34,500 bases of DNA from Candidatus Rokuibacteriota bacterium (GCA_016188005.1 JACPIQ010000061.1:1-34500); one strand, 5' to 3'; shown: positions 460 to 13,894, numbered from the stretch's first letter. Program-made: numbers and translations. Notes: generated from the sequence alone by a model not told the origin.

Positions 460-735
460 CTACGCAATACACGCCACGATGCGGGAAGCAACCTGGCCAT
501 GGCTGGGGTACCCCTTCGGACCATCGGGGAGATCCTGGGACATCGCGACATGCGGATGACCACCCGGTACGCGCACCTGAGTCCGCAGCACCTCCGGGAG
601 GCCATGCACACCCTTGACGCACCGCCAGCACCTAGAGCCGAACCAGAGCAGCAGGGCGACGAGGCAGCACCAGGACGCAAGGGAGCCCGATCAACGGGCA
701 CTATCTGGGCACCGAGCACCTCGGCCAGAAAGAAC
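460..735 (+). pseudogene. Decayed tyrosine recombinase, C-terminal end only
   Basis: The frame containing NLAMAGVPLRTIGEILGHRD and MRMTTRYAHLSPQHLREAM matches the last catalytic block of phage-type tyrosine integrases, including the conserved GH and the nucleophile-type Y of TRYAHL. Just upstream, a garbled LRNT...SNLAMAG resembles the HxLRHTxAS motif but is scrambled by small indels, and an in-frame stop lies at 457-459. All N-terminal and arm-binding domains are gone. After about residue 60 the frame is unconvincing and runs through the terminator and the tRNA fragment, so the true end is uncertain. It points toward the tRNA-Asp attachment site as an integrase should, so it is probably the relic of an earlier element at the same site. 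Confidence 0.7.
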
Positions 736-809: not shown

Positions 810-839
810 GGGGGCGCACGACAGATTTGTGAGATGAGC

Positions 840-2548
840 TCATCGGGCGCCGGCCGGCGCCGCTGCCCGGCGCTCCCAGAAGTCCTCGAAGCGGCCGCTG
901 AGCTTGCAGCAGCGCAGGGCGATGATCGCGTCGGCCCCGGCCACCGTCCAGTGCATGCCGGCCCGTTTGAGGCGCGTGCCGATGGCGACCTTACAGCCAG
1001 CCTCGACGACGCCGGAGGAGGTGCACAGGCCCTGGGCGCGGAAGTCCGGGTAGCGCATGCGGTGACGGTTGCGCGTGAGGTAATCCAGGCCCTTGCGCGC
1101 CTCGTCGTTGGCCTGGGCGTGGAGGCCCAAGGCGGCCAGGACGGCGTCGATCTGGCCCTCGTCCAGTTCATCGTGCCGCTGCGTGGCCCACTGCGCGCCG
1201 AGGGCGCTCTTCGCCCCGTAGATGTCCTTGGCCACGTCCGAGAGGTAGTGCTTGACGTGGAAGAGGTCGACGATCTGGAGCGCCCCGGGGAACTGCTCGT
1301 CGGCCAGGTTCCAGATCCAGAGGGCCCCGTCGCCCAGGACGGCCCGGCGCGCGGCGGCGTCGAAGCCGCGGCGCCTGGCTTCGCGGGCCGTCCGCTGTGC
1401 AAATTCCGACACCTCCTCATCGGTGTCGCGGCTGGCCGCGCTCTCGATGGCCGCCGAGTAGGTGACCGAGCCCGCGTCGCGCACGGGGGTGCCGTCGTCG
1501 TCGCGGGCCTCGGCGGTCCAGACGGTGACGAGCTTGACCTCACGCGTCTTGGCCGAGCCGTCGGGCTGCTTGCCCTCCCGCCCCTGCAGTTCCGAGGCGC
1601 GCATCGGCACGCCCGTGCCGTCCAGGCCCAGGGACATCGTGGGCGCGGGCGGCGGCGAGGGCTCGCCCCCGGTCCGCTCGTCCTGCGCGATCTCGCGGCC
1701 GAGCGCTTCGGCGGTGCGCTCGACCTGCTTGGCGTCCACCGGCACGCCCCCCAGCTCGCGCATCAGCTCGCTCGACTCCGCGAAGCTGACCATCGCCGCC
1801 GCCAGCCCCACCATGCGGGTGACGGCCGGCGAGAGCGAGGCGTCCTGCAACCCCAGGGCGCGGTCGCGGGGGCAGAAGCCGCTCTCGCAGGCGTCGCAGT
1901 AGTAGTACGCGCGCCCCAGCATGAGGTCGCCCAGGGCCGTCGTGAAGGTTTTCGGCCGGCGGCCGGCGTAGCGCGCCGCCGTGCCGCAGTCGCACGGGAA
2001 GGTAGGGCCGCGGTGGTCGGACCCGTCCGCGTTCAGGCGCTGCTCGACGGCGCGCGCCGCCACGGTGAGCGCGCGCCGGCGCGCGGCCGTCTCGATGGCC
2101 TCAAAGTCCAGCCCGTCGACGGCGCCCGGACCTACGAGCGCTTCGATCTCGGCGACGACTGCCGCGTCGAAGGCTTCTTTGAGCCCCCCTTTTTGGCGGC
2201 CTCGGAGGAGGTCGCCCCGGGGGCCGCCAACGCGGCGTCGGCCCACGGCTCGCAGGCCTCCCAATAGGCCTCGACGTGGCGCCGGAACTGCTGGCCGGCG
2301 GCGATCTGCTGCCGGACCACGGGGGCCTGGGCCGCGGAGACGAAGCGCGACTGCGTCCGGCCCCGGATGGTCCGGGTCACGCTGTAGTACGGGCCATGGC
2401 GGGCCTCGGGGCGATCGGCACAGGCACAGCCGGGCTTGCTGCACTTCACGTAGCGCTCCGAGAGCGAGCCGCGGCGCATCGGGGTGGGGGTTGCGAGCCG
2501 GGTGGCCAGCGTCCGCACACGGACCGGGACCTCGGGGGTATCCGCCAT
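840..2548 (-). CDS. ISKra4-family transposase, two frames, probable programmed -1 frameshift
   Basis: Translation starts at ATG 2546-2548 behind a GGAGG site. The N-terminal part, MADTPEVPVRVRTLATRL..., has the RRGSLSERYVKCSKPGCACA motif and the RHGPYYSVTR stretch seen in N-terminal zinc-binding modules of such transposases. It runs in one frame to about 2190. The catalytic part lies in the -1 frame down to the stop at 840-842. It carries GLDGTGVPM (first Asp), GDGALWIWNL (second Asp), IVDLFHVKHYLSD and SSGVVEAGCK (Glu), and ends LSGRFEDFWERR. The frames meet at A5G6 (minus-strand sequence 2194-2184), where AAG-GGG can re-pair as AAA-GGG. Joined, the protein has about 569 residues. A plain frameshift mutation is the alternative. 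Confidence 0.82.
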
Positions 2549-2559
2549 GCACCACCTCC

Positions 2560-2580
2560 TTACGGCCGTCAGGGCCGTAA
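2560..2580 (-). promoter_or_regulatory. Hairpin next to the transposase ribosome-binding site
   Basis: TTACGGCC (2560-2567) and GGCCGTAA (2573-2580) form a perfect 8-bp stem with a 5-nt loop. On the minus strand it ends directly before AAGGAGGTGG, the ribosome-binding site of the transposase. Many insertion sequences use such leader hairpins to block translation from impinging external transcripts; that role here is inferred. Confidence 0.45.
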
Positions 2581-2636
2581 GATCATGCTACCACACCCTC
2601 GTGGCTTCCCCTTCCTCATTCTGGTGTCGTGCACCC

Positions 2637-2661: not shown

Positions 2662-2692
2662 AGAAAATCCCGCGCGCCAAGTCCGCGTTTTC

Positions 2693-3871
2693 TTAGCGCC
2701 TGATGGCGCGGACTTTGCCACTTCTCCCCGTGTCTTTGCCCTGCTGGAGCACCGCCGCGGCGGCCAGCTTGGCGCCGGCCCCGCGGAGCATCCCTTCGTC
2801 GACGATTGCGTACCGTCGGAACACCGAGGCCGTCAGGTGGCCCGTCAGCGCCATGGCTGTCGTCTCCGGGATGCCCGCGCGGATCAGGTTGCGGACCGCG
2901 CTCCGGCGGAAGTCGTGAAAGATGCGCGTCGGCACCTTCCGCGTCGTGGGCGGCTCGCCGTCCCGGGCCTCACCCACCGGCTCGACGCGGAAGAGCCCCG
3001 CGGCGATGCAGGCCGTCGCCCAGGCCTTCTTGAAATCGCCCACCGGGCCACCGCCGACGCCCGCGAAGACCCACGGCACGACGCGCGCAGTCTTCGTCTG
3101 GATGCTCTCGACGCGAGCGCGCTGCGCCTCCAGCACCGCGCGAAGCTCCGGGGTGAGGGGGAACATGCGGCCCTCGGCGTTCTTGGTTTCTTGCGGTTCG
3201 AGCCGGAGCCAGCCGCCCGCGAAGTCGACATGACCCCACTGCCGTGAGCGAAGCTCCGCCTTGCGCCAGCCCGTGAGGTAGGCCGCGCGCGCCAGCCCGG
3301 CCAACTCGGGGCGCAGGTGCTGGCAGACGGCCGTGAAGTCGGCGGGCTCAAAGAACCCCTTGCGGACGTTCCGCTCCTCAAGCTTCGCGACGTGGAACGG
3401 TGCCGCCAAGCCGTGCTGCGCCTTGGCGAGCGAGGCCATGCGTTGCAGCGCGGCCAATTCTCGATTGATCGTTGCCGGTGCCGCCTGCTCGGCGAGGCGG
3501 GCGGCCTTGTACCGCTCGACGTCGGCCGTGGTGAGCCGGCTCATGCGCGTGGTCGCCCCGAAGTGGGCCAGGAGCCGCAGGAGGCGAAATTCAACCGTCG
3601 CGGCCGACTTGCGCCTGTTCGCCGTGTAGTCGTTGCGGAGCATCGTCGCCGCGTCCGTGAGGGTCAGCCGGTCCCCCGTGGGGCTCACCGGAATATTGAG
3701 CGCCACCTTGCCCTCGCGCTCCCGGAGGAACGCGCGGGCCTTGCGCTCGTCCTCGGTATCGGTCGACTGGCGGACCGTCTTGCCGTGCTGGCGGAAGCGG
3801 ATCCACCAGACGGCCGACTCGCGGACCTGGCCGTTCCGGTCGCGGTATTTCGGTCGAAAGATCGCGCCCAT
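2693..3871 (-). CDS. int: Tyrosine recombinase (site-specific integrase of the island)
   Basis: This 392-residue protein has the full phage-integrase plan. A basic N-terminal part (WWIRFRQHGKTVRQSTDTED) is followed by a SAM-like core-binding domain (about 65-165) and the catalytic domain (about 175-370). Catalytic residues are R203 (TGWRKAEL), K230, H319 and R322 (HDFRR), H345 (TGH) and the nucleophile Y354 (FRRY). It should join attP on the element to the 3' half of tRNA-Asp. The gene ends 31 bp from attL, as is typical. ATG is preceded by GGAGGGG. It is the last gene of the minus-strand operon, 13 bp after the Arc-like gene. It looks intact, unlike the relic at 460-735. Confidence 0.95.
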   Translation of the reverse strand: MGAIFRPKYRDRNGQVRESAVWWIRFRQHGKTVRQSTDTEDERKARAFLREREGKVALNIPVSPTGDRLTLTDAATMLRNDYTANRRKSAATVEFRLLRLLAHFGATTRMSRLTTADVERYKAARLAEQAAPATINRELAALQRMASLAKAQHGLAAPFHVAKLEERNVRKGFFEPADFTAVCQHLRPELAGLARAAYLTGWRKAELRSRQWGHVDFAGGWLRLEPQETKNAEGRMFPLTPELRAVLEAQRARVESIQTKTARVVPWVFAGVGGGPVGDFKKAWATACIAAGLFRVEPVGEARDGEPPTTRKVPTRIFHDFRRSAVRNLIRAGIPETTAMALTGHLTASVFRRYAIVDEGMLRGAGAKLAAAAVLQQGKDTGRSGKVRAIRR

Positions 3872-3884
3872 GTTTCCCCTCCCT

Positions 3885-4076
3885 CTATCGCGCCGATGCG
3901 CGCAGGTCGCGTGTGATCTCTGGCATCAGCGTTTCCAGATACGCGCCGACCGTGAGGCCTCGGGTCATCGCCGCGGCTCGGATCGCGCGCGCGACGGAGA
4001 CCTTGATCCCGCGGACGTTGAGGGTCGTGCGCGCGTCGTCGGGCTGTGGCTTCGTGCGCTTTGCGGGCGTCGCCAT
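3885..4076 (-). CDS. Small Arc/ribbon-helix-helix-like protein
   Basis: The 63-residue product has a basic N-terminus (MATPAKRTKP) followed by ARTTLNVRGIKVSVARAIRA, then AAMTRGLTVGAYLETLM. A short beta strand, a helix with regularly spaced Ala/Ile and a second helix is the pattern of ribbon-helix-helix DNA-binding proteins. AAGGAGGA precedes the ATG at the right distance. Lying directly upstream of the integrase, it could be a directionality factor or a regulator of int; this is inference from position. No toxin partner is adjacent, so a plain antitoxin role is less likely. Confidence 0.65.
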   Translation of the reverse strand: MATPAKRTKPQPDDARTTLNVRGIKVSVARAIRAAAMTRGLTVGAYLETLMPEITRDLRASAR

Positions 4077-4095
4077 GTCTGTATCCTCCTTGCCA

Positions 4096-4344
4096 TTAGG
4101 ATACTACGGACACAGAGGGTGTCAAGGACTTCTTCTGTCTCGGGCTGAGACGAAGTTCCTTGGCTCCACCCCGCGCGCCCTGGGCCCGCTCCAGCCCCGC
4201 CAACAACTCCCCCGCCCGCCGCTCGGCGCCGATCTTGATGGCCACCAGGGGCTTCACTTCCGCCCGCCCCACATGCCAGATCATGAACACCACCACCGCC
4301 ACGGAGGCCGTCCCGAAGATGTCCGCCGAGCTCCAGGGGGTCAT
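4096..4344 (-). CDS. Small single-pass membrane protein of unknown function
   Basis: The 82-residue product opens MTPWSSADIFGTASVAVVVF, followed by MIWHVGRAEVKPL. This gives one hydrophobic segment at about residues 8-25 and then a charged, helix-prone tail rich in Glu, Arg and Ala (GAERRAGELLAGLERAQGARGG). A short N-terminus before one membrane helix and a cytoplasmic helical tail resembles small phage membrane proteins, but one helix gives no firm holin assignment. The ribosome-binding site is weak. It sits in line with the rest of the minus-strand operon, 19 bp before the Arc-like gene. I do not recognise the family. Confidence 0.5.
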   Translation of the reverse strand: MTPWSSADIFGTASVAVVVFMIWHVGRAEVKPLVAIKIGAERRAGELLAGLERAQGARGGAKELRLSPRQKKSLTPSVSVVS

Positions 4345-4489
4345 GGCCTACCAGAGGCGTGCGCACGCCGTCTGGTGAAGCTGTAGGCGGGGTTTCCGGC
4401 ACAGACAAGGGGTGAACCCTACCCGCGCCCTGGGGCGCCAGGAACGGCCGTGAAGGGATAGAGAAACCAGGGGCCGCCCGGCATGGCCC

Positions 4490-4660
4490 CTACTCCCCCT
4501 CGGGCCGACAGGTCGAGTGCATCCGGTCGCCGGCATGCGTCGCCAGGCGGGGCTTGTCACACTTGAGGCATGGTTTCCACTTCGGCCACCCTTGTCGCGG
4601 AATCGTCGGGCGACGGGACGGCGTGGGGCGAGACTTCAGGGGAGAGACAGGGGGCAGCAT
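4490..4660 (-). CDS. 56-residue zinc-knuckle protein
   Basis: A short frame from ATG 4658-4660 to TAG 4490-4492. The N-terminal half is rich in Pro, Arg and Lys. The C-terminal half reads KPCLKCDKPRLATHAGDRMH, then STCRPEGE. The CxxC...H...C arrangement with THAGDRMxxxC closely follows a zinc-binding motif found in many small phage and mobile-element proteins (CxxCxxxFxSxHAGNRxCxxC). Such proteins are usually of unknown role, possibly transcriptional. No strong ribosome-binding site is seen, but the frame lies between two operon genes on the same strand. The motif makes a chance frame unlikely. Confidence 0.6.
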   Translation of the reverse strand: MLPPVSPLKSRPTPSRRPTIPRQGWPKWKPCLKCDKPRLATHAGDRMHSTCRPEGE

Positions 4661-4694
4661 CTAGGCCTCGCGGGGCGTGAAGCGCGCGAAGGTC

Positions 4695-4940
4695 TCACGG
4701 GGCCGGGGCGAGGGATTGGGCACGCCCCCCCCCGCCAGACGGGGATTCCGCGTGCGAATCGCCGCTGTTCATGCGAGTCCGCGCCGCCTCCAGGATCTTC
4801 TCGAACCGGGGGTGGGACAGGGCGGTCAGGTTCTTGGGCTCGGGCCAGAGACGCTCCCCGATGTCGCCCAGGGCCGTGGTGAAGTCCGAGATTCCGTGCT
4901 GGGCCATGAGGTACGCCACGCGGGCATTCCACTCGGCCAT
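4695..4940 (-). CDS. Hypothetical 81-residue protein of the island operon
   Basis: The product starts MAEWNARVAYLMAQHGISDF and continues TTALGDIGERLWPEPKN, then LSHPRFEKILEAARTRM, and has a Ser/Gly/Pro-rich tail. It looks helical and soluble. ATG 4938-4940 has GAAGGAGAA at good distance and is my preferred start. The same frame is open upstream to another ATG at 5073-5075, which overlaps the stop of the preceding gene as ATGA. A longer 126-residue product starting MKASRPVTSMTGERGTFARH is therefore possible. I do not recognise a family. Confidence 0.6.
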   Translation of the reverse strand: MAEWNARVAYLMAQHGISDFTTALGDIGERLWPEPKNLTALSHPRFEKILEAARTRMNSGDSHAESPSGGGGRAQSLAPAP

Positions 4941-5071
4941 CGTGTTCTCCTTCTCTCGCTCGTCTCGGGGGGAGGACCCCGTGAGCCGCACCCGCGCCCC
5001 CAGCGCCGCCCGGACATGGCGCGCGAACGTCCCGCGCTCGCCGGTCATGCTCGTGACGGGCCGGGATGCCT

Positions 5072-5305
5072 TCATAAACGACGCGCCGAGGACGCCGTGG
5101 CCTTCAGGCCGGTGGAGGATGTCAAGGCTCCTCCGCGGCGCCAGGCGCGCGGCGACAATTGCACGTCGATTTTCGCTTGGAGCGTTCGCGCCCGCGAACC
5201 TGCGCCCGCCCGGTCGGCCTCGAAGCCGCAGTTTGCGCAGATCCAAAGTGCCGGCTCGGCGCGGAGGAAGCCGCGGCACTTCGGGCAAGAATTCACAGCG
5301 GCCAC
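5072..5305 (-). CDS. Small zinc-ribbon protein
   Basis: Read from GTG 5303-5305, the 77-residue product begins VAAVNSCPKCRGFLRAEPAL, then WICANCGFEADRAG. Two CxxC knuckles 14 residues apart form a classical zinc ribbon. The C-terminal half (QAKIDVQLSPRAWRRGGALT) is basic and unremarkable. The start lies just after the stop of the preceding gene (tca 5307-5309), and GAGGCGGGG before it can serve as a ribosome-binding site. The stop overlaps a possible alternative start of the next gene. Small zinc ribbons in phage operons often bind DNA or RNA, but no specific function can be given. Confidence 0.55.
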   Translation of the reverse strand: MAAVNSCPKCRGFLRAEPALWICANCGFEADRAGAGSRARTLQAKIDVQLSPRAWRRGGALTSSTGLKATASSARRL

Positions 5306-5306
5306 G

Positions 5307-5690
5307 TCACCCCGCCTCGAGCGTCGCCACCATGCGCGCACCTTCGACGGAATCGACGGCCGCCCACAACGCCGCAAAGACAGCATCGGCGCTGGCGGTA
5401 GGGCGAGCGTCCGCCGCTTGCCTCCAGAGAACGACGAGATACGGCCACCGCGCGTCGGCCGCCTTGAGGTATCGGGTCAGGTCCGGACAGGCGGGGACGC
5501 CCGGCGCCGGCGCACAGGTCATGAGCCACGCGCGCAACGCCTCTACCCCGCCGCCGACGCCTTCACGGATCGCCACGAGCAAGATCCCGGCGCGCACGAC
5601 GCCGACGAGGTCCGCGGCGGGCACGCCATCATCGCGAAGGAATCTCAAGAGGGCGCGCACGGTCGTGGCCAGTTGGTCGCGGTCGGGCAC
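5307..5690 (-). CDS. Hypothetical 127-residue helical protein
   Basis: I start it at GTG 5688-5690 (VPDRDQLATTVRALLRFLRD), directly after the TAG of the upstream gene at 5695-5697. The frame is also open further upstream, but that part is basic and overlaps a better gene. The protein is rich in Ala, Val and Leu and appears all-helical (ADLVGVVRAGILLVAIREGV, then DARWPYLVVLWRQA and AVFAALWAAVDSVEGARMV). No signal peptide, catalytic motif or family signature is recognised. Tight packing against both neighbours suggests co-translation in the island operon. Confidence 0.55.
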   Translation of the reverse strand: MPDRDQLATTVRALLRFLRDDGVPAADLVGVVRAGILLVAIREGVGGGVEALRAWLMTCAPAPGVPACPDLTRYLKAADARWPYLVVLWRQAADARPTASADAVFAALWAAVDSVEGARMVATLEAG

Positions 5691-5694
5691 GGGC

Positions 5695-6486
5695 CTACGT
5701 GCCCTGGCGCCGTGCGGGTGCCGACGCCTTCGCGGGCGCCCCGGTCGTGCCCCCGCCATCACTCTCATGTGGATCTCTGAGCTGGGGCGCCGTGAGAAGA
5801 TCGTCGGGCCACTCCAGCGACGGCACCGCGAGCGGCTGGGCGGTCGTGGCCCGAACCTCCGCCGCCAGGGCGATCAACTCGCTTTCGCCGGGCGCCGGCC
5901 CGCGCACGCTTTCGGCGCGCCGGCGCAGTTCGCCGAGCTGGAATGTCGCCCGGGCGACATGCTGCTCGCGCAAGACGCGCAAGGCGCCGGCGACGGCCCG
6001 CGGGAGGGCCTGCTTCACGAGGTCAGCGACGCGCGCAGCCGGGGCGAGCGTTTCGTCCTGCATGGCGGCCACCGCCACCGCCAACTCCCGGGTCCGCTGC
6101 TCCGCCTCGCCGGCCGCCGCGAGGTCCTGGGGCTTCGTGGCCCCGGCCCGCGTTTGCCGGATGCTGGCCCGCGCGGCTTCCAGCATGGCCTCTGCCTCGG
6201 TGCCGAGGGCCCGTGCCGCCTCCAGCACCTCGCACAGCTCGCGCTCCGCCGTCACCAGGCGGCGGATCGCCTTGTGCAACTGCACCGACGCGGTCGCGGG
6301 CTCGAAGGTCCGCCATTCGGCGCGCCAGCGCTCCGCCTCGTCGGCGGGCTCAGCCGCTACGTCCCGAAACGCCTCGCTTGCCGCCGCCCACGTTCTCGCG
6401 AGCCGCTCGCGCGCGGCCTCCACGAGGCGCAGGAGGGCACGAAGGGTGGCCGGGGTCACAGTCTTCTCTACGGTCTCCGTCTCCAT
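5695..6486 (-). CDS. Hypothetical coiled-coil-rich protein of the terminase operon
   Basis: The protein of about 263 residues is dominated by long charged Ala/Glu/Arg helices (TPATLRALLRLVEAARERLA, TAERELCEVLEAARALGTEA). The C-terminus is looser and Pro/Gly-rich (LLTAPQLRDPHESDGGG). I prefer the second ATG, 6484-6486 (METETVEK), because GAGGAG directly abuts the first one at 6490-6492. It has no membrane segment or known catalytic motif. Its place two genes after the large terminase is where phages carry portal or scaffold genes. It does not look like a portal protein; a scaffold-like or DNA-associated role is only a guess. Confidence 0.65.
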   Translation of the reverse strand: METETVEKTVTPATLRALLRLVEAARERLARTWAAASEAFRDVAAEPADEAERWRAEWRTFEPATASVQLHKAIRRLVTAERELCEVLEAARALGTEAEAMLEAARASIRQTRAGATKPQDLAAAGEAEQRTRELAVAVAAMQDETLAPAARVADLVKQALPRAVAGALRVLREQHVARATFQLGELRRRAESVRGPAPGESELIALAAEVRATTAQPLAVPSLEWPDDLLTAPQLRDPHESDGGGTTGAPAKASAPARRQGT

Positions 6487-6498
6487 CTTCATCTCCTC

Positions 6499-6717
6499 TC
6501 AGCGTCCCACTGCCGTGTTGAGCCGCCGGTGGACCCCGGCGGGAAGGCGAACGTCGACGTGGCCGCCGAGGGCCTCGATGAACCGGCCGTGCACGCCGGG
6601 GGGGAGAGTGACCTCCCTCGTTTCGTGCATTTCCTTCGACTGCGGATTCGCGCGAGCGTCCGCGGCGTGCTGCTCGAGCGTGCGTTGCCCCGTCAGCTTC
6701 ATGTGGATCTCGCTCAT
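6499..6717 (-). CDS. Hypothetical 72-residue protein
   Basis: The product opens MSEIHMKLTGQRTLEQHAAD and contains two similar segments, LPPGVHGRFIEALGGHV and LPAGVHRRLNTAVGR. This suggests a small internal duplication of an LPxGVHxR helix motif. AAAGGAGCACACC before ATG 6715-6717 is a good ribosome-binding site. It lies 61 bp after the large terminase gene and 12 bp before the coiled-coil gene, all on one strand. The family is not recognised. Confidence 0.6.
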   Translation of the reverse strand: MSEIHMKLTGQRTLEQHAADARANPQSKEMHETREVTLPPGVHGRFIEALGGHVDVRLPAGVHRRLNTAVGR

Positions 6718-6778
6718 GGTGTGCTCCTTTCGGGGCGCATCGCCCCTGCTGGCGCCGCCTCCATGGCGGCGACCGGGT

Positions 6779-8320
6779 TCATACCCATCGGTGCCACTGA
6801 TTCACATACGGCCCGTCGGCGGCGTCGTCGTCAACGACATTCCCGACTTCGTATTCCTGCCGCGCGCTCCACGAGGGGAGGTCGAGGCCGGGGAGCGCGC
6901 GCCGGATTTGCGCGTACTCCCCCGCGGTCAGCGCCATGTCGGCGGGTGCCGCGCCCGCCGCGCTGCTCGCGGTCGTGAGAGCCACCGCCGCGGCCACGGC
7001 GAGGTCGTCGTGCGCTCCGGGGCGGTGGTCAATCCGATCCCGCCCGCTCGTGCCGCGGCGGCGCTCGAGGCCTCGCAGCTCGCGCAGGAGGCCGGGGTGG
7101 TCCAGGAGCACGGCGCCGCCGGCGTTGACCAGCGCGAGCAGGTCCAGGTAGACGACACTCTTGTCCCGAGATGCGATGTACTCGATGCCGTGCGCCCGGA
7201 ACTGCTCAGCCACGAACTCGCCGGCGTAACGGTCACCAAACACGGCCCCGCACCCATAGGTTGCTAGGATGTCGCTGCACTCTGCGATCACCCTCGAAGG
7301 ATTGAAGGGCGGCGCCCACGCCCGGGCCAGGTCCAGCACCGCCCGCTGGCCGTCATGGTGCCCGATGCTGAGGCCGAAGCGGTCCCGCCGGCCACCGGAG
7401 GGGTCGCAGCCCGCGACGTAGAGGGTGCCGGGCGCCGGCGGGCGCTCGCGGATACCGTCGGGCACGAGCCCGTCGAACACGTCCGGGTCGAACAGCGCCG
7501 CGAGGCCGGCGCGGAACTCGCCGAGCACTTCGCTCCGGTACGCTTCGGGATCGTCCTGCATCCGCTCCAGGTAGTTGGCGGGAATGAGCGGGTTCATCTC
7601 GGGCGCGCTCGCCTGCCAGACGAGCACCAGAGAGTCGTCCCGGCCGTAGTGCTGGTGATAGAGGTCCCACAACGCCCCGCTTTGCCCGTAGGGGCTCGAC
7701 AAGACGATCAGGCGCCCGCCCGTGGTCGCAAGACAGGGCCGGAGCGCGCGCAACATTTCCACGTCGGTTGCCCGGCCCTCGCTCGTGATGAAGTGCGCCA
7801 GCTCGTCCACCGTGCCGACGCACCCCCGCACGCCGCGGATGGCGGCGGGCCGGCAGGGGTACGCCGCCAGCACCACTCCGTTGTCGAGCCGGAGGGTGTC
7901 CGCGGTCTGCGCCACAACCGCCTTGGCAAGCGTCGGCAACATCTCGAAGGGGGCGCGCGCGTAGCGCAAGAGCGTGCGGATGGCGCCCAGGTGATCCTGG
8001 CCGATCAAGAGCGCGTATATTTCCGTCCCGTCGTGCTGAGCGGTGGCGACGACGGCCTCGAAGTCGGCGATGAGGGCCGCCACCCGACTTTTGCCCGACT
8101 GCCGGCCGACCACCACGACCCCCTCGGGGTATCCCCCCGGCGGGGGCGCATAGCGGGAGCGCCCCGTGTGGTGGCGGAAGATGCCCTCCTCCTCCAGGTC
8201 CATCGGAAGCCCGTAGACGGCTTTAAGGAAGACGATCCACCGGCGCCATGTCGTCAAGTCGCGGAACGCCGGCAGGCCGCCGAACACGGCAGGATCGGCG
8301 AGCGCCTCGATGATCGTCAC
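6779..8320 (-). CDS. terL: Phage terminase large subunit (ATPase and nuclease)
   Basis: Large terminases drive DNA into a procapsid and cut it. This 513-residue protein has both domains. In the ATPase domain, Walker A is GRQSGKS (72-78), Walker B is GTVDELAHF (acidic pair 172-173) and the coupling motif is SSPYGQSG (208-215). The RNase H-like nuclease domain has D306 (CDPSGG), D363 (FGDRY) and D438-D439 (AHDDLAVA). Length and order fit an intact TerL. The GTG start overlaps the stop of the candidate small subunit as GTGA, which indicates translational coupling. It is the only recognisable virion-assembly gene in the island. Confidence 0.92.
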   Translation of the reverse strand: MTIIEALADPAVFGGLPAFRDLTTWRRWIVFLKAVYGLPMDLEEEGIFRHHTGRSRYAPPPGGYPEGVVVVGRQSGKSRVAALIADFEAVVATAQHDGTEIYALLIGQDHLGAIRTLLRYARAPFEMLPTLAKAVVAQTADTLRLDNGVVLAAYPCRPAAIRGVRGCVGTVDELAHFITSEGRATDVEMLRALRPCLATTGGRLIVLSSPYGQSGALWDLYHQHYGRDDSLVLVWQASAPEMNPLIPANYLERMQDDPEAYRSEVLGEFRAGLAALFDPDVFDGLVPDGIRERPPAPGTLYVAGCDPSGGRRDRFGLSIGHHDGQRAVLDLARAWAPPFNPSRVIAECSDILATYGCGAVFGDRYAGEFVAEQFRAHGIEYIASRDKSVVYLDLLALVNAGGAVLLDHPGLLRELRGLERRRGTSGRDRIDHRPGAHDDLAVAAAVALTTASSAAGAAPADMALTAGEYAQIRRALPGLDLPSWSARQEYEVGNVVDDDAADGPYVNQWHRWV

Positions 8321-8706
8321 GCCGCGCCCCCGCGGAGCCGCGCCAGGGCGGGATCAACGGCTGAGCGGCGCCCCCGGGCGGCCAGGGCCCGGAGCGTAGC
8401 GAGGGCCTGGGCTGCGCTGGCATCGTCGAGAGCCGCCCGGCGGGCCGCCCGCTCGACCTGTCGCGGCGACGGGCGCCGGCCCCGGCCCGCTCGGCGTTGC
8501 TCCACCAGCTCGGCCCACACCCGCGCGGCCTCGCCGGCCCTGAGGCTGAGCAGAGCGACGCGGGCGGCCTCCCGCCGGAGCAGCGCGTCGCCGTCGATCC
8601 CGAGCCCGGCCAGGAGCGCGAGGTACCCGTGTCGATAGCCTCTCGCCAGGGGGCCGCGGTGGTCCCGGAAGACCCGCACCAACCCGCTCCTCAATGGCCG
8701 GCTCAC
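8317..8706 (-). CDS. Candidate terminase small subunit
   Basis: The frame from GTG 8704-8706 to the TGA that overlaps the terL start gives 129 residues, beginning VSRPLRSGLVRVFRDHRGPL. The middle is helical and charged (DGDALLRREAARVALLSLRA, then GEAARVWAELVEQRRAGRGR), and the tail is basic (RQVERAARRAALDD). Small terminases are short, mostly helical DNA-binding proteins encoded immediately upstream of terL, and this gene overlaps terL by 4 nt. The assignment rests on position, size and composition, since small terminases share little sequence. The same frame extends upstream, but the preceding gene's stop overlaps the chosen start as GTGA. Confidence 0.55.
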   Translation of the reverse strand: MSRPLRSGLVRVFRDHRGPLARGYRHGYLALLAGLGIDGDALLRREAARVALLSLRAGEAARVWAELVEQRRAGRGRRPSPRQVERAARRAALDDASAAQALATLRALAARGRRSAVDPALARLRGGAA

Positions 8707-9251
8707 GATCTGCCCCCAACCGCGACGGTATCCGCCCTGCATGCGCTCCCGACCGCGCCCGGATCGCACGCCGAAGGCGCCCCGATCCCCGCCCTCAGAC
8801 GCTTCGCGCGCGCCTTCTGGACGCCTTCCGCGCCCCGCTCGCCAGCACTCGCGTGGGCGCCCCTGTGCGTCACGAGGAGCACGTCCAAGTCGTCTCGGAG
8901 CACGAGGATAGCTCTCATGCCCGGTACTCGGACCACAGGCAACGCGCCGGCCACGATCAGGCGCCAGAGACCGCGGACTGGCACGCCCGAGTAGCTCGAC
9001 GCGACTCGGAGCGGGAGCCCGCGCCCCCACCCGTGCTGAGACGGCAAAGACGTAGCAAAGACGCGCGATTCAGCCGCGTCTTCCGCGGCTCCGAGGGCCG
9101 CGCCCTGGATTCCAACTCCACCAGGCGGCGGTGCTGAGAGCGTGCGGCGACGGCCCGCACGGCGCCGCAGACGGCGGCTCGCAGCGGCCAGCCGCGGCTC
9201 GGCGGCGGTGCCGTTGCCTGGCGCGACGATCGGGCTCGCGGGGACGCTCAC
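8703..9251 (-). CDS. Excisionase-like helix-turn-helix protein
   Basis: The 182-residue product has a low-complexity basic N-terminus of about 75 residues. Residues 80-127 then read LPLRVASSYSGVPVRGLWRL...LPVVRV...LRDDLDVLL. The spacing matches the HTH_17/excisionase fold (AAxxLGVSxxTVxRLIxxGxLPxxRxGxxxRIxxxDLxxxL). Such proteins bind attachment or operator sites. The GTG start overlaps the preceding stop, and its own stop overlaps the next start, both as GTGA. Lying directly before the terminase pair, it could be a DNA-recognition partner for packaging or a directionality factor; the sequence does not decide. The long N-terminus is odd, so a later start is possible. Confidence 0.6.
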   Translation of the reverse strand: MSVPASPIVAPGNGTAAEPRLAAASRRLRRRAGRRRTLSAPPPGGVGIQGAALGAAEDAAESRVFATSLPSQHGWGRGLPLRVASSYSGVPVRGLWRLIVAGALPVVRVPGMRAILVLRDDLDVLLVTHRGAHASAGERGAEGVQKARAKRLRAGIGAPSACDPGAVGSACRADTVAVGGRS

Positions 9252-9505
9252 GCCGAGGACTCCTCGGTGGAACGTGAGAGGTTGAGTCGGGGGTCCCCGA
9301 GGCGGTGGGCGGGGGCGGCTGGCGCGGCGACGCCGATCGCCGCAGCAATGATCGCCGCACTATATATACCGTGTGCGGTAGTGCGGTGAAAACCACGGGA
9401 GGGGCGCCCTTTTCCGTTGGGGGCGTCCTCCCTCTTCGGGCTCGGAAGGCTTCGCCGCAGATGGTGTGCTGCGGCGGTAATTCGGTGATTGGCGCGGAGT
9501 TTCAT
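9248..9505 (-). CDS. Hypothetical 85-residue protein between primase and HTH gene
   Basis: The ATG at 9503-9505 overlaps the primase stop as ATGA, and its own stop overlaps the next start as GTGA, so it is embedded in a translationally coupled series. The product begins MKLRANHRITAAAHHLRRSL. It has a basic middle and a hydrophobic Ala-rich stretch, GIYSAAIIAAAIGVAAPAAP, that could be a weak membrane segment. Base composition dips around 9340-9375 (tatatata), unlike its neighbours. I do not recognise it; the coupled overlaps are the main reason to call it real. Confidence 0.5.
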   Translation of the reverse strand: MKLRANHRITAAAHHLRRSLPSPKREDAPNGKGRPSRGFHRTTAHGIYSAAIIAAAIGVAAPAAPAHRLGDPRLNLSRSTEESSA

Positions 9506-11424
9506 CCGTTCGCCTCGTCCATCGACGCACACGGTGCTTGCGGCGAAACCGGCAAGGCCGAGTAGCGAGCGGTCTTGCCCTTGCCGGCTTGGGACGCCTG
9601 ACCGGCCTTCAGGAGGGCCGAAACGTGCCGGAGCACGCTATCTGCTGAGAGGGTTATATCCTTGGCCTTCAGGAGGGCGACGATCTCGCCGGTGGCGAGC
9701 GCGGCCCCGGCGTCCCGCAGGATGGCGAGCACGGCGTCGCGGTTCCTGGCGCCGGTGGCCCGACGGGCATCGGCGAGGTCCTCGACGGAGCCAGCGAAAC
9801 TGAACTTTTCCTCGCCGCTGCCCGGCGGGGTCACGGCGAGAAAGAACCGCCGAGTTTCCATGTCTTTGCCCTCGACGAACACCTCAATCCGGCGCCCAGC
9901 TTCGACGACATCGAGCATCACGACATGCTCGGCGGCCTGCCACTTCTGCGGGGGGCCGAAGATATCGGCCGAGGAGAGCGGCTGCCCGTCCGGTCGGTTC
10001 TTGCGGGAATGGTCGACGACGATCACCAGGCCGTCGATGTCCTCACAGAGCTGCACGACGACTGCGACGAGCCGGGCCTGGTCGTGCGCGCCAAGGGGAT
10101 CAGCGGACGGGGAGAGAGCGGTCCACGTATCGAGCACCACCATGGTGATCCCGAGGGACCGGCAGGTGTTCCGGAGCCAGGTGATATGCTCCGGGTTCGC
10201 CAGGTCGAGATGGGGGCGGATCACGAACACGATGGCCCCGGGCTCGGGGCGCTCCGTCCAGGCACTCAGGATGTCGGCCCGGCGACCGTCAAGCCGTGCG
10301 CCGCCGTCCTCGCGCGAGACATAGAGGATCTTCGGGAAGGTCCGGACGAGGAACTTCTTGGCGACGGCGGAGCGCCGGCACGCGATCGCCAGGCAGACGT
10401 AAAGGGCGAGGAGACTCTTGAATCGCTTGGGCAAGCCGCCCCACCACACAATCCCCTTGGCGGGCAGCAGGCTTTCGATCAGCTCGGCGATCGCGGGGAA
10501 CTCCCACGGATCAGCGCCATCGTGAAGCGACCAAGCCGGAGCGCCCACGGCCGGATCGCCTGAGTCCTCAGCGGACGCGGAGCGCTGCGCGTCCTTCACG
10601 GCGAGGTCGCGGACGATCTGCCGCGCCTCGGCGGCCGGGAACGGCGGCGAGCAGCGAGCCGCGAAGCCGAGGAGGATTTGTTCAACCTCGGGCGCTGTGA
10701 TGCCGAGTCCGAGGAAGTGCCCAGCGATGCGCGCGGCGACGGCGTGGCGCTGACCGTCCGGGGCGCCGGCCAGGAGATCCGCCCAGTCGGTCGCCTCGCC
10801 AGGCTCTCCATCACCATTCGAGGAGCTGGCCGGCGCGAAGGCGAGCGCCAAGAGCCAGGTGGGCATCGACGCGAGCGTCGTCTCGAACAGCGGCGCGTCG
10901 GGATCGTCGCGGTACGTGGCGCCGCTCACATGCGCCGAGGGCGGCAGGAGCACATACGCGCCCGCGGCCCGCACGTCCACGCCGGGGCCGATCTTGCCGA
11001 CACTATTTCGGAGCCCGGAGACCGGCGCGAAGAACAAATGTCTGCCACCACCGCCGCTCAGGACTCGCGGCGTGACGGGGAGCGCCCCGCACTGCTGCTC
11101 GAGCTCGGCGAGCGTGAGGTCGCCGCCGTGGCGCGGGTCGACGTCGAGCACTGTGCACCAGGTCGTCGGTGTCGCGATGCCGGCGCTCAGGTGGCGCGTC
11201 CACCAGCGGCGGATGATCGCCGCGACCGTCGTCGCATCGTGGAGTCCGTGCGGCACCACGGCGCCGATGGGGTGCTTCGCCGGGCGCGTGCAATCCGCCT
11301 CCCCGCAGCCGCAGCGCCCGCCGATCGGCCACCAGACAGGAAAGACGGGCACGCCGCGGCCGGCGTACTCGAGCGCCGCGGCAAGCATCGTCGCCTGGGC
11401 GCCGCCTTGCCGTGGGACGCTCAC
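9502..11424 (-). CDS. Primase-polymerase fused to RepA-like ATPase (replication protein)
   Basis: This 640-residue protein probably starts replication of the island. Residues 10-190 form a bifunctional primase/polymerase domain. It has a zinc-type cluster CGCGEADC...KHP (38-51), the metal-binding DVD (94-96) and SGGGGRHLFF (123-132). Residues 300-520 resemble a RepA/DnaB-type ATPase with a Walker A-like GLPKRFKS (330-337), Walker B VVLDTW (D432) and VVDHSRKN (H472). A C-terminal winged helix (about 565-625) could bind DNA. The GTG start overlaps the upstream HTH gene's stop as GTGA. Proteins of this plan replicate plasmids, satellites and prophages, so the element may copy itself when excised. 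Confidence 0.88.
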   Translation of the reverse strand: MSVPRQGGAQATMLAAALEYAGRGVPVFPVWWPIGGRCGCGEADCTRPAKHPIGAVVPHGLHDATTVAAIIRRWWTRHLSAGIATPTTWCTVLDVDPRHGGDLTLAELEQQCGALPVTPRVLSGGGGRHLFFAPVSGLRNSVGKIGPGVDVRAAGAYVLLPPSAHVSGATYRDDPDAPLFETTLASMPTWLLALAFAPASSSNGDGEPGEATDWADLLAGAPDGQRHAVAARIAGHFLGLGITAPEVEQILLGFAARCSPPFPAAEARQIVRDLAVKDAQRSASAEDSGDPAVGAPAWSLHDGADPWEFPAIAELIESLLPAKGIVWWGGLPKRFKSLLALYVCLAIACRRSAVAKKFLVRTFPKILYVSREDGGARLDGRRADILSAWTERPEPGAIVFVIRPHLDLANPEHITWLRNTCRSLGITMVVLDTWTALSPSADPLGAHDQARLVAVVVQLCEDIDGLVIVVDHSRKNRPDGQPLSSADIFGPPQKWQAAEHVVMLDVVEAGRRIEVFVEGKDMETRRFFLAVTPPGSGEEKFSFAGSVEDLADARRATGARNRDAVLAILRDAGAALATGEIVALLKAKDITLSADSVLRHVSALLKAGQASQAGKGKTARYSALPVSPQAPCASMDEANG

Positions 11425-11621
11425 CTCCCCGCCCCCTCGTGCCCCCGCGCTCTCGCGGCCGAGCGCGCGGCCGCGAGCCGCTCCACGTCTTCGAGCAGAA
11501 AGATCCGGTAACCGCGCGCCGTCCGGAACGCGTGGAGCAGCCCCGCCCGCTCGAGCTGCCGCACGCGCTCCGCGCTGACCTGCAGGAGCTGTCCCGCCTC
11601 GCCGGCTGTCACGGGTCTCAT
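11421..11621 (-). CDS. MerR/excisionase-like HTH protein, first gene of the island operon
   Basis: The 66-residue product starts MRPVTAGEAGQLLQVSAERV, continues RQLERAGLLHAFRTARGYRI and then FLLEDVERLAAARSAARARG. This is a MerR-type winged helix: a helix-turn-helix of the GEAGxLLxVSxxRVRQLExxGLL type, then the wing and the FxxxDVERL helix. With only the DNA-binding part, it is of the size of phage Xis/AlpA proteins and small repressors. It is the promoter-proximal gene of the operon that includes replication and packaging, and it faces the regulatory dyad at 11646-11682. A role as autoregulator of the operon is likely but inferred. Confidence 0.75.
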   Translation of the reverse strand: MRPVTAGEAGQLLQVSAERVRQLERAGLLHAFRTARGYRIFLLEDVERLAAARSAARARGHEGAGR

Positions 11622-11645
11622 GTCACCCCCGAGGCTAGAGGAACC

Positions 11646-11682
11646 TTGACATTTGTCAACGATCCATGAAAGAATCGTTAAC
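11646..11682. promoter_or_regulatory. Divergent promoter/operator with two overlapping dyads
   Basis: TTGACA (11646-11651) and its mirror TGTCAA (11654-11659) form a 14-bp palindrome. Each strand therefore has a consensus -35 box pointing outward, toward the zinc-motif gene on one side and the HTH/primase operon on the other. Directly beside it, AACGAT (11658-11663) and ATCGTT (11674-11679) form a second dyad, extended to 9 matches of 11 per arm. The -10 boxes are weak. This resembles a lysogeny-type control region where one regulator sets the balance between two promoters. Confidence 0.6.
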
Positions 11683-11685
11683 GCA

Positions 11686-12315
11686 ATGGCCCGCCCTCAG
11701 GCGTTAACTCGCGCCGAGTTCCTCGTCCGGTTCCTGGTGACCGACCTCGACCGACTCAGATCCCGACAGCGGACCCGACTGCTCGAGGATCTCGGTAAGT
11801 TCTGCCGGAACCCGGCGGAGGCCCTATGGGGGGAAATGGAACCGGCCCCAACGTGGGGCGACGTCCCCGCGCTTCAGCACTCAGTGCGCTGGCTTCTCGA
11901 GGGTATTCTCCTGCCGCCCCGCCGCCCTTCGGGGCCGTCTGACCTCGATCTCCTCGCGGCGGGGAAGACTGAAACGCTTGAGCGCGTTGAGGGGGCCGAC
12001 ATCACGATCCGGAATATCGGCGTCATCGGCCAGAGCCGCAGCCGGCACGGCTTCGTCCTGGTGCGGTCAACCCCGCGGGACATCCTCCGGCTCCTCGCCC
12101 TGGGGGTTGTAACGCGCGGCGACCGGCTTCCGGCCGTGGCCCGGTGCGGCGATCCCCACTGCCCACGGAAGTGGTTCGTCGGGCGCGGTAAGAAACGCTT
12201 CTGCGATGACAGGTGCCGGGTCCGCGTTTTCGTCCGAAGAAAGCGTGCGGCTCAGGCCAAACGGAATGGCGGGCGGGCAGGGGGACACCGACGCCGGGAG
12301 CGACCCGGCGCCTAG
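11686..12315 (+). CDS. Zinc-motif protein divergent from the island operon
   Basis: From ATG 11686 the product has 209 residues (MARPQALTRAEFLVRFLVTD). The N-terminal two-thirds look helical and then mixed (RNIGVIGQSRSRHGFVLVRS, TPRDILRLLAL). The C-terminus has CGDPHCPRKWFVGRGKKRFC followed by DDRC, resembling the CGNR-type zinc finger of small regulators (C...C..WF....R...RFC...C), then a very basic tail. It is transcribed divergently from the operon across a shared operator, the usual position for a master regulator or repressor. A TTG start 33 bp upstream is possible but would overlap the operator. Confidence 0.65.
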   Translation: MARPQALTRAEFLVRFLVTDLDRLRSRQRTRLLEDLGKFCRNPAEALWGEMEPAPTWGDVPALQHSVRWLLEGILLPPRRPSGPSDLDLLAAGKTETLERVEGADITIRNIGVIGQSRSRHGFVLVRSTPRDILRLLALGVVTRGDRLPAVARCGDPHCPRKWFVGRGKKRFCDDRCRVRVFVRRKRAAQAKRNGGRAGGHRRRERPGA

Positions 12316-12810
12316 CCCGCGAGCGGTGATCCGGCCTCAGCACCTTCGGGATTCATCCTCAACCTGCCGCGGCCTCGCAACGGCACTGCGTCCGGCGACA
12401 CGACGAAAACCTGTGGCGTCTCGACATAGGCGAGGACATCGGTGGCAGCCACATCCTGCCACCCCACGCCCGGCTCGTGGCAGCGACCACCCCGACTGTG
12501 CCCGCGCTCGCGCCCGCGGCCACCCGTCCCCGGACGTCGCCAGCTCCGCGCCGGTCACGGAAAGGGCGAAAGGCCCCCGGTAATCTGTGCGGACCCGCGG
12601 CGGCGAGGGCCGCCGCCAGGCCACACGATGGAGCCCCGCGGCCCCTCTTGCGCACGATCCCCGGTGCGCGCATAGTTCCACCACCCTGCGGCGGAGCGGC
12701 CGGCCCCCGACATCTTGTGGGCGACGGGCCGGCGGGCACAAGGCGGCCAGGCCATCTCAGAACGGGGCGCGGCCCGGGCTCGGGGTGTAGGCTGGGAGCG
12801 GAGGCCAGAT
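12316..12810. other. Intergenic stretch between the regulator and hicBA
   Basis: About 495 bp with no gene that I can support. A minus-strand frame ending near 12317 reads GWQDVAATDVLAYVETPQVF and then VVSPDAVPLRGRGR, which looks protein-like. It has no ATG and no ribosome-binding site and is under about 75 residues, so it may be a relic. Several longer frames are typical GC-rich shadows with Arg/Pro/Ala bias. No clear promoter for hicB was found. Confidence 0.4.
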
Positions 12811-13134
12811 GTGCTGACGATCGTGAAGGTCGAGGTCAAAGGCAACACGGAGTGGCGGTGCTTCCGCGCCCGGGGCGGGAGTTGGGTGGCGGTCTGCGAT
12901 CCGCTCGGGCTCACGATCCAGGGTGAGACCTGGGCCGCCATGACAGAGAGCATCGCCGAGACGCTCAACGCCATGCTCACCGATCTGATCGCCTCGAAGG
13001 AGCTGGAGCGCTTCCTCCGCGATCGGGGATGGCAGATCACGGGTCCGCTTCCTTCGCCGCCCGCCGACTTGTGGTTCGACGTGCCGTTCACCACCAGGAC
13101 AGCGGACCGTGATTCCGAGGCAGCACTTCGTTAA
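12811..13134 (+). CDS. hicB: HicB-like antitoxin
   Basis: The 107-residue product from GTG 12811 begins VLTIVKVEVKGNTEWRCFRA and continues ARGGSWVAVCDPLGLTIQGE, then TWAAMTESIAETLNAMLTDL. A short beta-rich start followed by the GxTxxEAxxxIxEAL-type helix is the HicB partial RNase H-like fold. No separate C-terminal HTH or RHH domain is obvious. GGAGG at 12800-12804 supports the start. The next gene overlaps it by 26 bp. HicB proteins bind and neutralise HicA, so this pair probably stabilises the island by addiction. Confidence 0.78.
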   Translation: MLTIVKVEVKGNTEWRCFRARGGSWVAVCDPLGLTIQGETWAAMTESIAETLNAMLTDLIASKELERFLRDRGWQITGPLPSPPADLWFDVPFTTRTADRDSEAALR

Positions 13135-13330
13135 TAAGCTCCGCGAGTTGAATTACACCTACAAGACCAAGCAGAAGCGCACGGAGCTCTGGCGCAAGCG
13201 CGGCGGGACCCATTACATCTCGATGCCGTTGAGTGACCTCCTTGAGGAGGAGTGGGTCACCTCGACGCTCCGTCAGGCGGGCCAGACCCAGGACGACATC
13301 CGGTCCTTCATCGCCGCGGCGAGAGCGTAG
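13109..13330 (+). CDS. hicA: HicA-like mRNA interferase toxin
   Basis: The 73-residue product starts at GTG 13109 (VIPRQHFVNKLRELNYTYKT) and has KQKRTELWRKRGGTHYISMP. HicA toxins are small double-stranded-RNA-binding-fold ribonucleases. Their key His lies in a G-S/T-H motif, here GGTH, about residue 35, and the LRELGY opening is also typical. The tail LLEEEWVTSTLRQAGQTQDD fits the last helix. It overlaps the antitoxin gene by 26 bp. The order, antitoxin first, is the reverse of classical hicAB. The region between the toxin and the attachment site carries the repeats described separately. Confidence 0.8.
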   Translation: MIPRQHFVNKLRELNYTYKTKQKRTELWRKRGGTHYISMPLSDLLEEEWVTSTLRQAGQTQDDIRSFIAAARA

Positions 13331-13813
13331 CGCCGGGCCCGCCCCGAAGAAGTGCCCCGCCCTCCCCGCCCTCCCACCTGGCGCCATTGGCTCGGCTGGG
13401 GGTGAGCGTGACGTTAGCCGCTGGGTTCCTAGCGCTGGCCGCGAGGGCCGTAGCGCGCTACGCGCCCCACCGCCAGCGATCCACGAGCCGCCGCACGTCC
13501 CAGGCCGGCGCCGCGACCCTCGCGGTCCCGGCGACCTTGAAGCCGAGCCCCGTCAACCCTGGGCGTGGCCGGTTGGGACCACCACCGACGTTGACAGCCT
13601 CCAGGGTCGGGACGCCGAGCCGCCGGTAGGTTCCCGTTGCCGTGAACGTGTAGCCCCGCGCGGTGACTTTGCTACGTCTTTCCCACTTCTGCCGGCACAA
13701 ACGGGCACTCTCGGGCACGGTCGGGCACGGAGAAAGCGACGGCGGACGGCCCGGAGCGTGTCCCGTGAACAGTCCGCCGTTGCGAGCGAAACGCCTTGTC
13801 TGGCGCCGTATTG
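13331..13813. other. Right-end arm of the island, non-coding or weakly coding
   Basis: About 480 bp between hicA and attR. A minus-strand frame (13458-13817) could encode VTARGYTFTATGTYRRLGVP...VGGGPNRPRPGLTGLG, but it lacks a convincing start and family. Four tandem 10-bp units lie at 13691-13730. CTTTGCTACGTCTTT at 13667-13681 recurs inverted at 9046-9060. This is where integrase arm sites would be expected. Confidence 0.45.
13691..13730. repeat. Four tandem 10-bp repeats near attR
   Basis: Four consecutive 10-bp units carry CCGGCAC, CGGGCAC, CGGGCAC and CGGGCAC in exact 10-bp phase, so each faces the same side of the helix. They start 84 bp inside the right end of the attachment core. Helically phased repeats next to an attachment site are a common form of integrase or excisionase arm sites, or of replication iterons. 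Which protein binds is not shown by the sequence. Confidence 0.5.
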
Positions 13814-13863
13814 TCATGGCGGGCTCGACGGGAATTGAACCCGCGACCTCTGGATTGACAGTC
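13814..13863 (-). repeat. attR: 50-bp attachment core within tRNA-Asp
   Basis: The core covers the tRNA-Asp 3' half from the anticodon stem to CCA plus 3 bp. It is identical to 778-809 joined to 2644-2661. The island therefore carried a matching tRNA 3' half and restored the gene on integration. Identity ends at 13864, where the tRNA 5' half begins. Confidence 0.88.
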
Positions 13864-13894
13864 CAGTGTGCTAACCAGGCTGCACCACGAGCCC
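13817..13894 (-). tRNA. tRNA-Asp (GTC), integration target of the island
   Basis: The 78-nt minus-strand gene folds as a complete cloverleaf: acceptor GGGCTCG/CGAGCCC with discriminator G and encoded CCA, D arm GTGC/GCAC, anticodon stem CTGGA/TCCAG with loop CTGTCAA, and T arm GCGGG/CCCGT with loop TTCAATT. The anticodon GTC decodes aspartate. The 3' half is supplied by the island. No terminator hairpin follows it inside the island; the likely original one was left at 736-767. Confidence 0.96.

Follow-up and report, generated by a model that had tools for sequence, protein, structure and literature searches.

Phage satellites are defined by their packaging in particles that another phage produces, in whole or in part (PMC11389934). 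PICIs use their own TerS or other factors to redirect the helper terminase, and cf-PICIs encode capsid, portal, connectors, head protease, TerS, and TerL and borrow only tails (PMC10690885). In the Mulch/Flayer satellites of Streptomyces phages, both terminase subunits (TerS and TerL) are self-encoded along with portal, capsid, and scaffold, and primases are missing (PMC10690885). phiRv1/phiRv2 and the mycobacterial candidate PICIs are small and integrated, have tyrosine or serine integrases, and in some cases also contain terminase and scaffold genes; candidates in the mycobacterial survey were picked by the major capsid gene (PMC10654092). Tycheposons and VEIMEs are named as proposed marine satellites (PMC11389934). 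A tycheposon is a tRNA-integrated tyrosine-recombinase element of marine picocyanobacteria. As described in these papers, satellites either redirect the helper motor or bring a whole capsid.

The element described here occupies positions 2662–13813 of a 34.5-kb stretch of DNA, hereafter the window, which is a whole contig from the draft genome of a high-GC bacterium. It is likely an integrative phage satellite with its own packaging motor, which would borrow capsid, portal, and tail from a helper (probability of about 0.7); both the packaging and the helper are inferred. With PICIs of the SaPI type it shares att-site integration, an integrase, an excisionase/regulator, its own replication protein, the absence of capsid genes, and a size of about 10–15 kb; for the TerS-type gene of PICIs, the window has only a candidate. 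However, it has a complete TerL of its own (6779–8320) and does not fit the PICI criterion of reliance on the helper TerL. An own TerL is shared with cf-PICIs, and a head protease is found in some relatives of the window element, but the element itself has neither its own major capsid protein nor its own portal. The Mulch/Flayer satellites likewise have their own TerL, and also a TerS, for which the window again has only a candidate, whereas their possession of portal, capsid, and scaffold and lack of a primase are the opposite of what is seen here. Tycheposons and VEIMEs share the tRNA integration and primase plan. The mycobacterial survey would miss capsid-less elements like this one because it selected by a capsid gene (PMC10654092). 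The element lacks genes for a complete virion, as the general satellite criterion demands. A complete temperate phage would need portal, capsid, tail, and lysis genes, all within its att sites, and the element does not qualify as one. It stands between PICIs and cf-PICIs, having its own TerL with no portal and no capsid, and fits neither class; it is satellite-like in gene content, its function being inferred, yet for every named class a defining trait is missing. The open-licence literature searched, which did not include the source papers on tycheposons and VEIMEs, contained no account of such a gene set, and its novelty is therefore provisional.

The following features delimit the element:

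778–809: left piece of attL, 32 bp identical to 13814–13845
810–2636, minus strand: ISKra4-family insertion in attL, with transposase at 840–2555 (NCBIfam transpos_ISKra4 2.8e-85)
2637–2661: right piece of attL, 25 bp identical to 13839–13863
13814–13863: attR, 50 bp, overlapping the 3' part of tRNA-Asp
13817–13894, minus strand: tRNA-Asp

Both attL pieces share the seven bases ACCCGCG (803–809 and 2637–2643), and the insertion sequence has imperfect terminal inverted repeats. The original attL duplicated the tRNA end over 50 bp and was subsequently interrupted by the insertion sequence with a 7-bp target duplication; the insertion sequence is not a part of the original element. At the corresponding locus of a same-genus genome (L025), the left flank is 97% identical to that of the window and no element is present; the att is unbroken at 4999–5047, and between it and the tRNA lie 1.7 kb of different DNA, with a similar right flank beyond the tRNA. 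Since the split att is explained and the L025 locus lacks the element, the latter is a discrete insertion of approximately 11.2 kb. The insertion sequence probably hinders excision of this copy and may lock it in place, which suggests that the copy is no longer freely mobile.

The tRNA-Asp locus of L025 (1966–2014, 4999–5047, and 6785–6862) is an integration hotspot, carrying two additional tandem copies of the att. Just left of attL, the plus strand of the window (499–660) holds what appears by eye to be a C-terminal remnant of another tyrosine integrase; since the flank with this remnant is common to L025, an older element probably used the same tRNA-Asp site. At the second tRNA-Asp locus of the L025 genome (L026), a different element adjoins the tRNA, with an integrase 46% identical to that of the window and a primase-like ORF, of the DnaG type by eye.

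Between the att sites, the following genes were recognized:

2693–3871, minus strand: tyrosine integrase, 392 aa (Pfam Phage_integrase 6e-12; PHROG integrase 4.5e-41)
3885–4076, minus strand: 63-aa protein of unassigned function (weak PHROG match, E 0.005)
4096–4344, minus strand: 82-aa ORF, N-terminus hydrophobic by eye (PHROG 0.003, unknown family)
4490–4660, minus strand: 56-aa ORF with a CxxC pair; doubtful gene, missed by the codon-based caller
4695–5048, minus strand: small ORF, start uncertain
5072–5386, minus strand: possible zinc-ribbon ORF (weak Pfam zinc-ribbon matches); overlaps its neighbors, doubtful
5307–5768, minus strand: ORF without assigned function
5695–6492, minus strand: 265-aa protein predicted to be all-helical (AlphaFold helices 14–59, 65–117, and 121–196)
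6499–6717, minus strand: 72-aa ORF after TerL
6779–8320, minus strand: TerL, 513 aa (PHROG phrog_2, terminase large subunit, 6.9e-22; PDB TerL nuclease domain 0.005)
8317–8679, minus strand: candidate TerS, by position and stop/start overlap with terL
8703–9251, minus strand: weak HTH (excisionase-like) ORF (Pfam HTH_17 E 0.02)
9502–11424, minus strand: replication protein, 640 aa (Pfam Prim-Pol 1.2e-34, PriCT_1 6.5e-06, AAA_25 5.7e-16)
11421–11621, minus strand: MerR/excisionase-like HTH protein (Pfam MerR 7.5e-08; PHROG excisionase 5.6e-06)
11653–12315, plus strand: 220-aa protein with a C-terminal zinc-finger-like Cys motif, by eye
12811–13134, plus strand: HicB-like ORF by eye (no Pfam match; PHROG unknown family 0.004)
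13109–13330, plus strand: HicA-like ORF by eye (no Pfam match)

An earlier note, made without database searches, had described 2662–13813 as an island with an intact integrase, a primase-polymerase/ATPase, a complete TerL, a candidate TerS overlapping terL, small HTH and zinc proteins, and HicBA. Its coordinates and gene content held, and the first three proteins were confirmed by Pfam and PHROG matches and by motifs. The HTH claim was borne out for the MerR/excisionase-like protein and only weakly for the second ORF. The zinc proteins remain a resemblance with weak support, although the 220-aa protein has similar C-termini in relatives L193 (14825–15511) and L066 (10476–11351). HicBA failed confirmation, with no Pfam match up to E=1.

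TerL had no match in the Pfam search. Its Walker A (GRQSGKS, residue 72), Walker B (VDELA, 171), SSPYG (208), and the nuclease acids (DPSGG, 306; GDRY, 362; HDD, 437) stand in the expected order, with both ATPase and nuclease motifs intact. By its sequence, it is an intact protein related to phage TerLs. The TerS claim held only in part: the gene position and one homologue, 48% identical and at the equivalent place in L015 (3108–3476), speak for it, and neither profile comparison nor fold search gave confirmation, so that TerS in the window remains no more than a possible assignment.

Searches of the element's proteins against Pfam, PHROGs, NCBIfam, and PDB revealed no portal, major capsid protein, or scaffold. 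The absence of portal and capsid genes noticed earlier therefore held, and the possibility named at that time as refuting, that one of the unknown proteins is a portal or capsid protein, was examined without finding any in the element. It could be argued that the element is a self-sufficient virus, the capsid of which is hidden unrecognized among the unassigned ORFs, and several ORFs are indeed without a family match. However, the largest protein besides the integrase, TerL, and PrimPol has only 265 aa and is predicted to be purely helical, the others do not exceed 220 aa, and no portal candidate of plausible size remains; we consider this explanation very unlikely. The fold search with the helical protein gave no match at E≤0.001. 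Helix-rich ORFs of 150–320 aa lie near TerL in most relatives, and a scaffold-like role of the window protein is only inferred. A single-protein pattern search gave no close viral relatives. No Pfam match to a portal or HK97 capsid, the only types searched for, was found in the draft genome, and the helper would therefore be exogenous, of another type, or absent from the assembly.

Five other genomes, from near the host or from another phylum, contain TerL relatives, as do an acidobacterial MAG (L008, 60% identity to the window) and IMG/VR contigs (L040, 59%). The wider TerL family was present in 26 of 396 acidobacterial genomes (E≤1e-25). A motif search with the TerLs of L050 and L051 gave, beyond those two, weak matches only (20–28% identity). 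Genes in the relatives were called with a codon-model script. Their recurring plan comprises a small DNA-binding protein, a primase (PrimPol or D5-like), TerS, TerL, several small proteins, and an integrase. Sixteen elements (15 relatives and that of the window) were bounded by exact direct repeats on either side of TerL, which in most cases lay in tRNA genes; the elements were 8.4–16.4 kb long (median 12.2 kb), and most had an integrase, a primase, and TerS next to TerL. A further candidate, L011, was removed from this set, having host-type genes between its repeats.

PHROG scans detected a portal in none of the 16 delimited elements; two carry a capsid gene, with none detected in the other 14. 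The scans covered 51 proteins of L008–L010, L015, L040, L050, and L051, and a further 106 and 21 internal proteins of acidobacterial and related loci, of which the large and mid-size ones were run singly. In the 51- and 106-protein scans, a weak single match could have escaped notice. Proteins of approximately 300 aa or more were rechecked in smaller sets or singly, except for a few primase-, helicase-, or TIR-like proteins judged by eye, one of which was also searched against PDB.

The two capsids were of different types. In L044, an 8.4-kb tRNA-Arg element, an HK97-type capsid (PHROG 9e-49; PDB capsid 1e-4) accompanies TerS, TerL, and the integrase with no portal, a very small size for a capsid-bearing element. 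In L195, a 16.4-kb tRNA-Arg element, a TerL of this family occurs together with a capsid protein of the T4 type (PDB gp23 9e-9) and a protease. Head maturation proteases were found in L051 (3.5e-23), L175, and L177; matches to "major head protein" in L175 and L177 were rejected as the N-terminal protease part of those profiles. Tape-measure proteins were detected in L189 (2.8e-57), L202 (1.8e-21), and the undelimited IMG/VR contig L041; their purpose in L189 and L202, elements without portal or capsid, is unexplained. Similar large ORFs in L177, L180, L194, and L201 had no match and are called tape-measure by appearance only. PHROG matches to Mom-like DNA modification and ParB-like proteins were also obtained among loci scanned together, by appearance from L040.

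These companions of TerL bear on another explanation, that the locus is a defence island, the TerL of which interferes with phages by competing for portals or cutting concatemers and does not package an element. In its favor, satellites often interfere with helper packaging (PMC10690885), and a TIR-like ORF adjoins the integrase in one relative (L066, 366–1292; by eye, without a PDB match), possibly as antiphage cargo. Against it, TerS-like genes, proteases, or tape-measure proteins stand beside TerL in many relatives, with which the use of TerL with particles, rather than interference alone, is the better fit. We regard the defence island as very unlikely.

In the TerL tree (55 sequences, maximum likelihood, quick method, SH-aLRT), the window grouped with L176, L008, and L040 at 100% support. 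Identity to the window was 58–61% for two members, and all catalytic motifs were kept. No portal or capsid was detected in any of the four, although the sequences of L008 and L040 run into contig ends and are seen only in part; L176 is delimited by 28-bp repeats, and ARAGORN found no tRNA there. This fully supported clade without detected portal or capsid suggests that these lineages split after the motor-only state had arisen. Phage TerLs fall in several other places of the tree, and the motors have therefore moved between phages and such elements. A three-way label required 10 changes on the tree vs. a mean of 14.1 after shuffling; some of the labels were based on contigs that are incomplete and on judgement of which contigs are phages. 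The dN/dS of TerL was 0.039/0.372, about 0.1, between L041 and L042, the closest capsid-less pair, and 0.317/1.044 between the window and L008, where dS is near saturation. Purifying selection acts on the TerL of capsid-less elements.

The remaining rival, a decaying prophage that lost its structural genes and retained TerL as a leftover, is supported by the insertion sequence interrupting attL, by broken or split TerL frames in L015, L186, and L199, and by the presence of true-phage TerLs elsewhere in the same family tree. It is nevertheless unlikely, in view of the catalytic motifs preserved throughout the four-member clade, the low dN/dS in the capsid-less pair, and the many independent elements with tight operon spacing and clean att sites. 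Close relatives proving to be full prophages with visible deletion scars had also been proposed as refutation; the nearest TerL relatives lack detectable capsid genes as well, and no scarred prophages were found among them.

The reading as a phage satellite with its own TerL and borrowed capsids, put forward in the earlier note, is thus supported, with packaging and helper inferred; the packaging strategy called unusual there is common to several divergent lineages and not a one-off. The window element belongs to a wider, apparently undescribed set and probably rides in the particles of other viruses, although such packaging is an inference. In the proposed life cycle, the integrase would insert the element at tRNA-Asp, and the small MerR-like protein is inferred to assist excision upon activity of a helper phage. 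Replication would be carried out by the PrimPol-AAA protein. The self-encoded TerL, probably together with a self-encoded TerS, would recognize satellite DNA, dock on the portals of helper procapsids, and fill them, with capsid, portal, and tail provided by the helper; the helical protein encoded after TerL may influence how the capsid is assembled. Since TerL normally functions paired with a matching portal, a stand-alone TerL would need a helper with a compatible portal.

A bolder reading, to which we lean only slightly, is that of a cross-phylum satellite class with a self-encoded TerS–TerL motor and without portal or capsid, to which a head protease, a tape measure, and occasionally a capsid would be added piecemeal, the helper motor being replaced and not redirected. 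A motor-only satellite would need to dock on foreign portals; this would make the specificity of TerL–portal pairing directly testable and amount to a third strategy of particle theft. Searches keyed on capsid genes or known gene sets may overlook such elements, which are not rare in phyla like the Acidobacteria.

Modular relatives were also present in the host family. In L227, of the same genus, an integrase and a PrimPol (52% identity) lie between 40-bp tRNA-Met repeats with no terminase. L228 (4313–7875) contains a portal (PDB 2.9e-15) along with a PrimPol of 52% identity and a TerL that is gpA-like by eye and different from the window type; the visible part shows no capsid. In L233, PrimPol, TerS, and TerL are joined by a tape-measure-like ORF. 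Such differences between the three loci indicate that the replication chassis combines with different packaging parts. The TerL of L233 (11438–13035) consists of two overlapping ORFs, an ATPase part and a nuclease part, with an ATGA junction.
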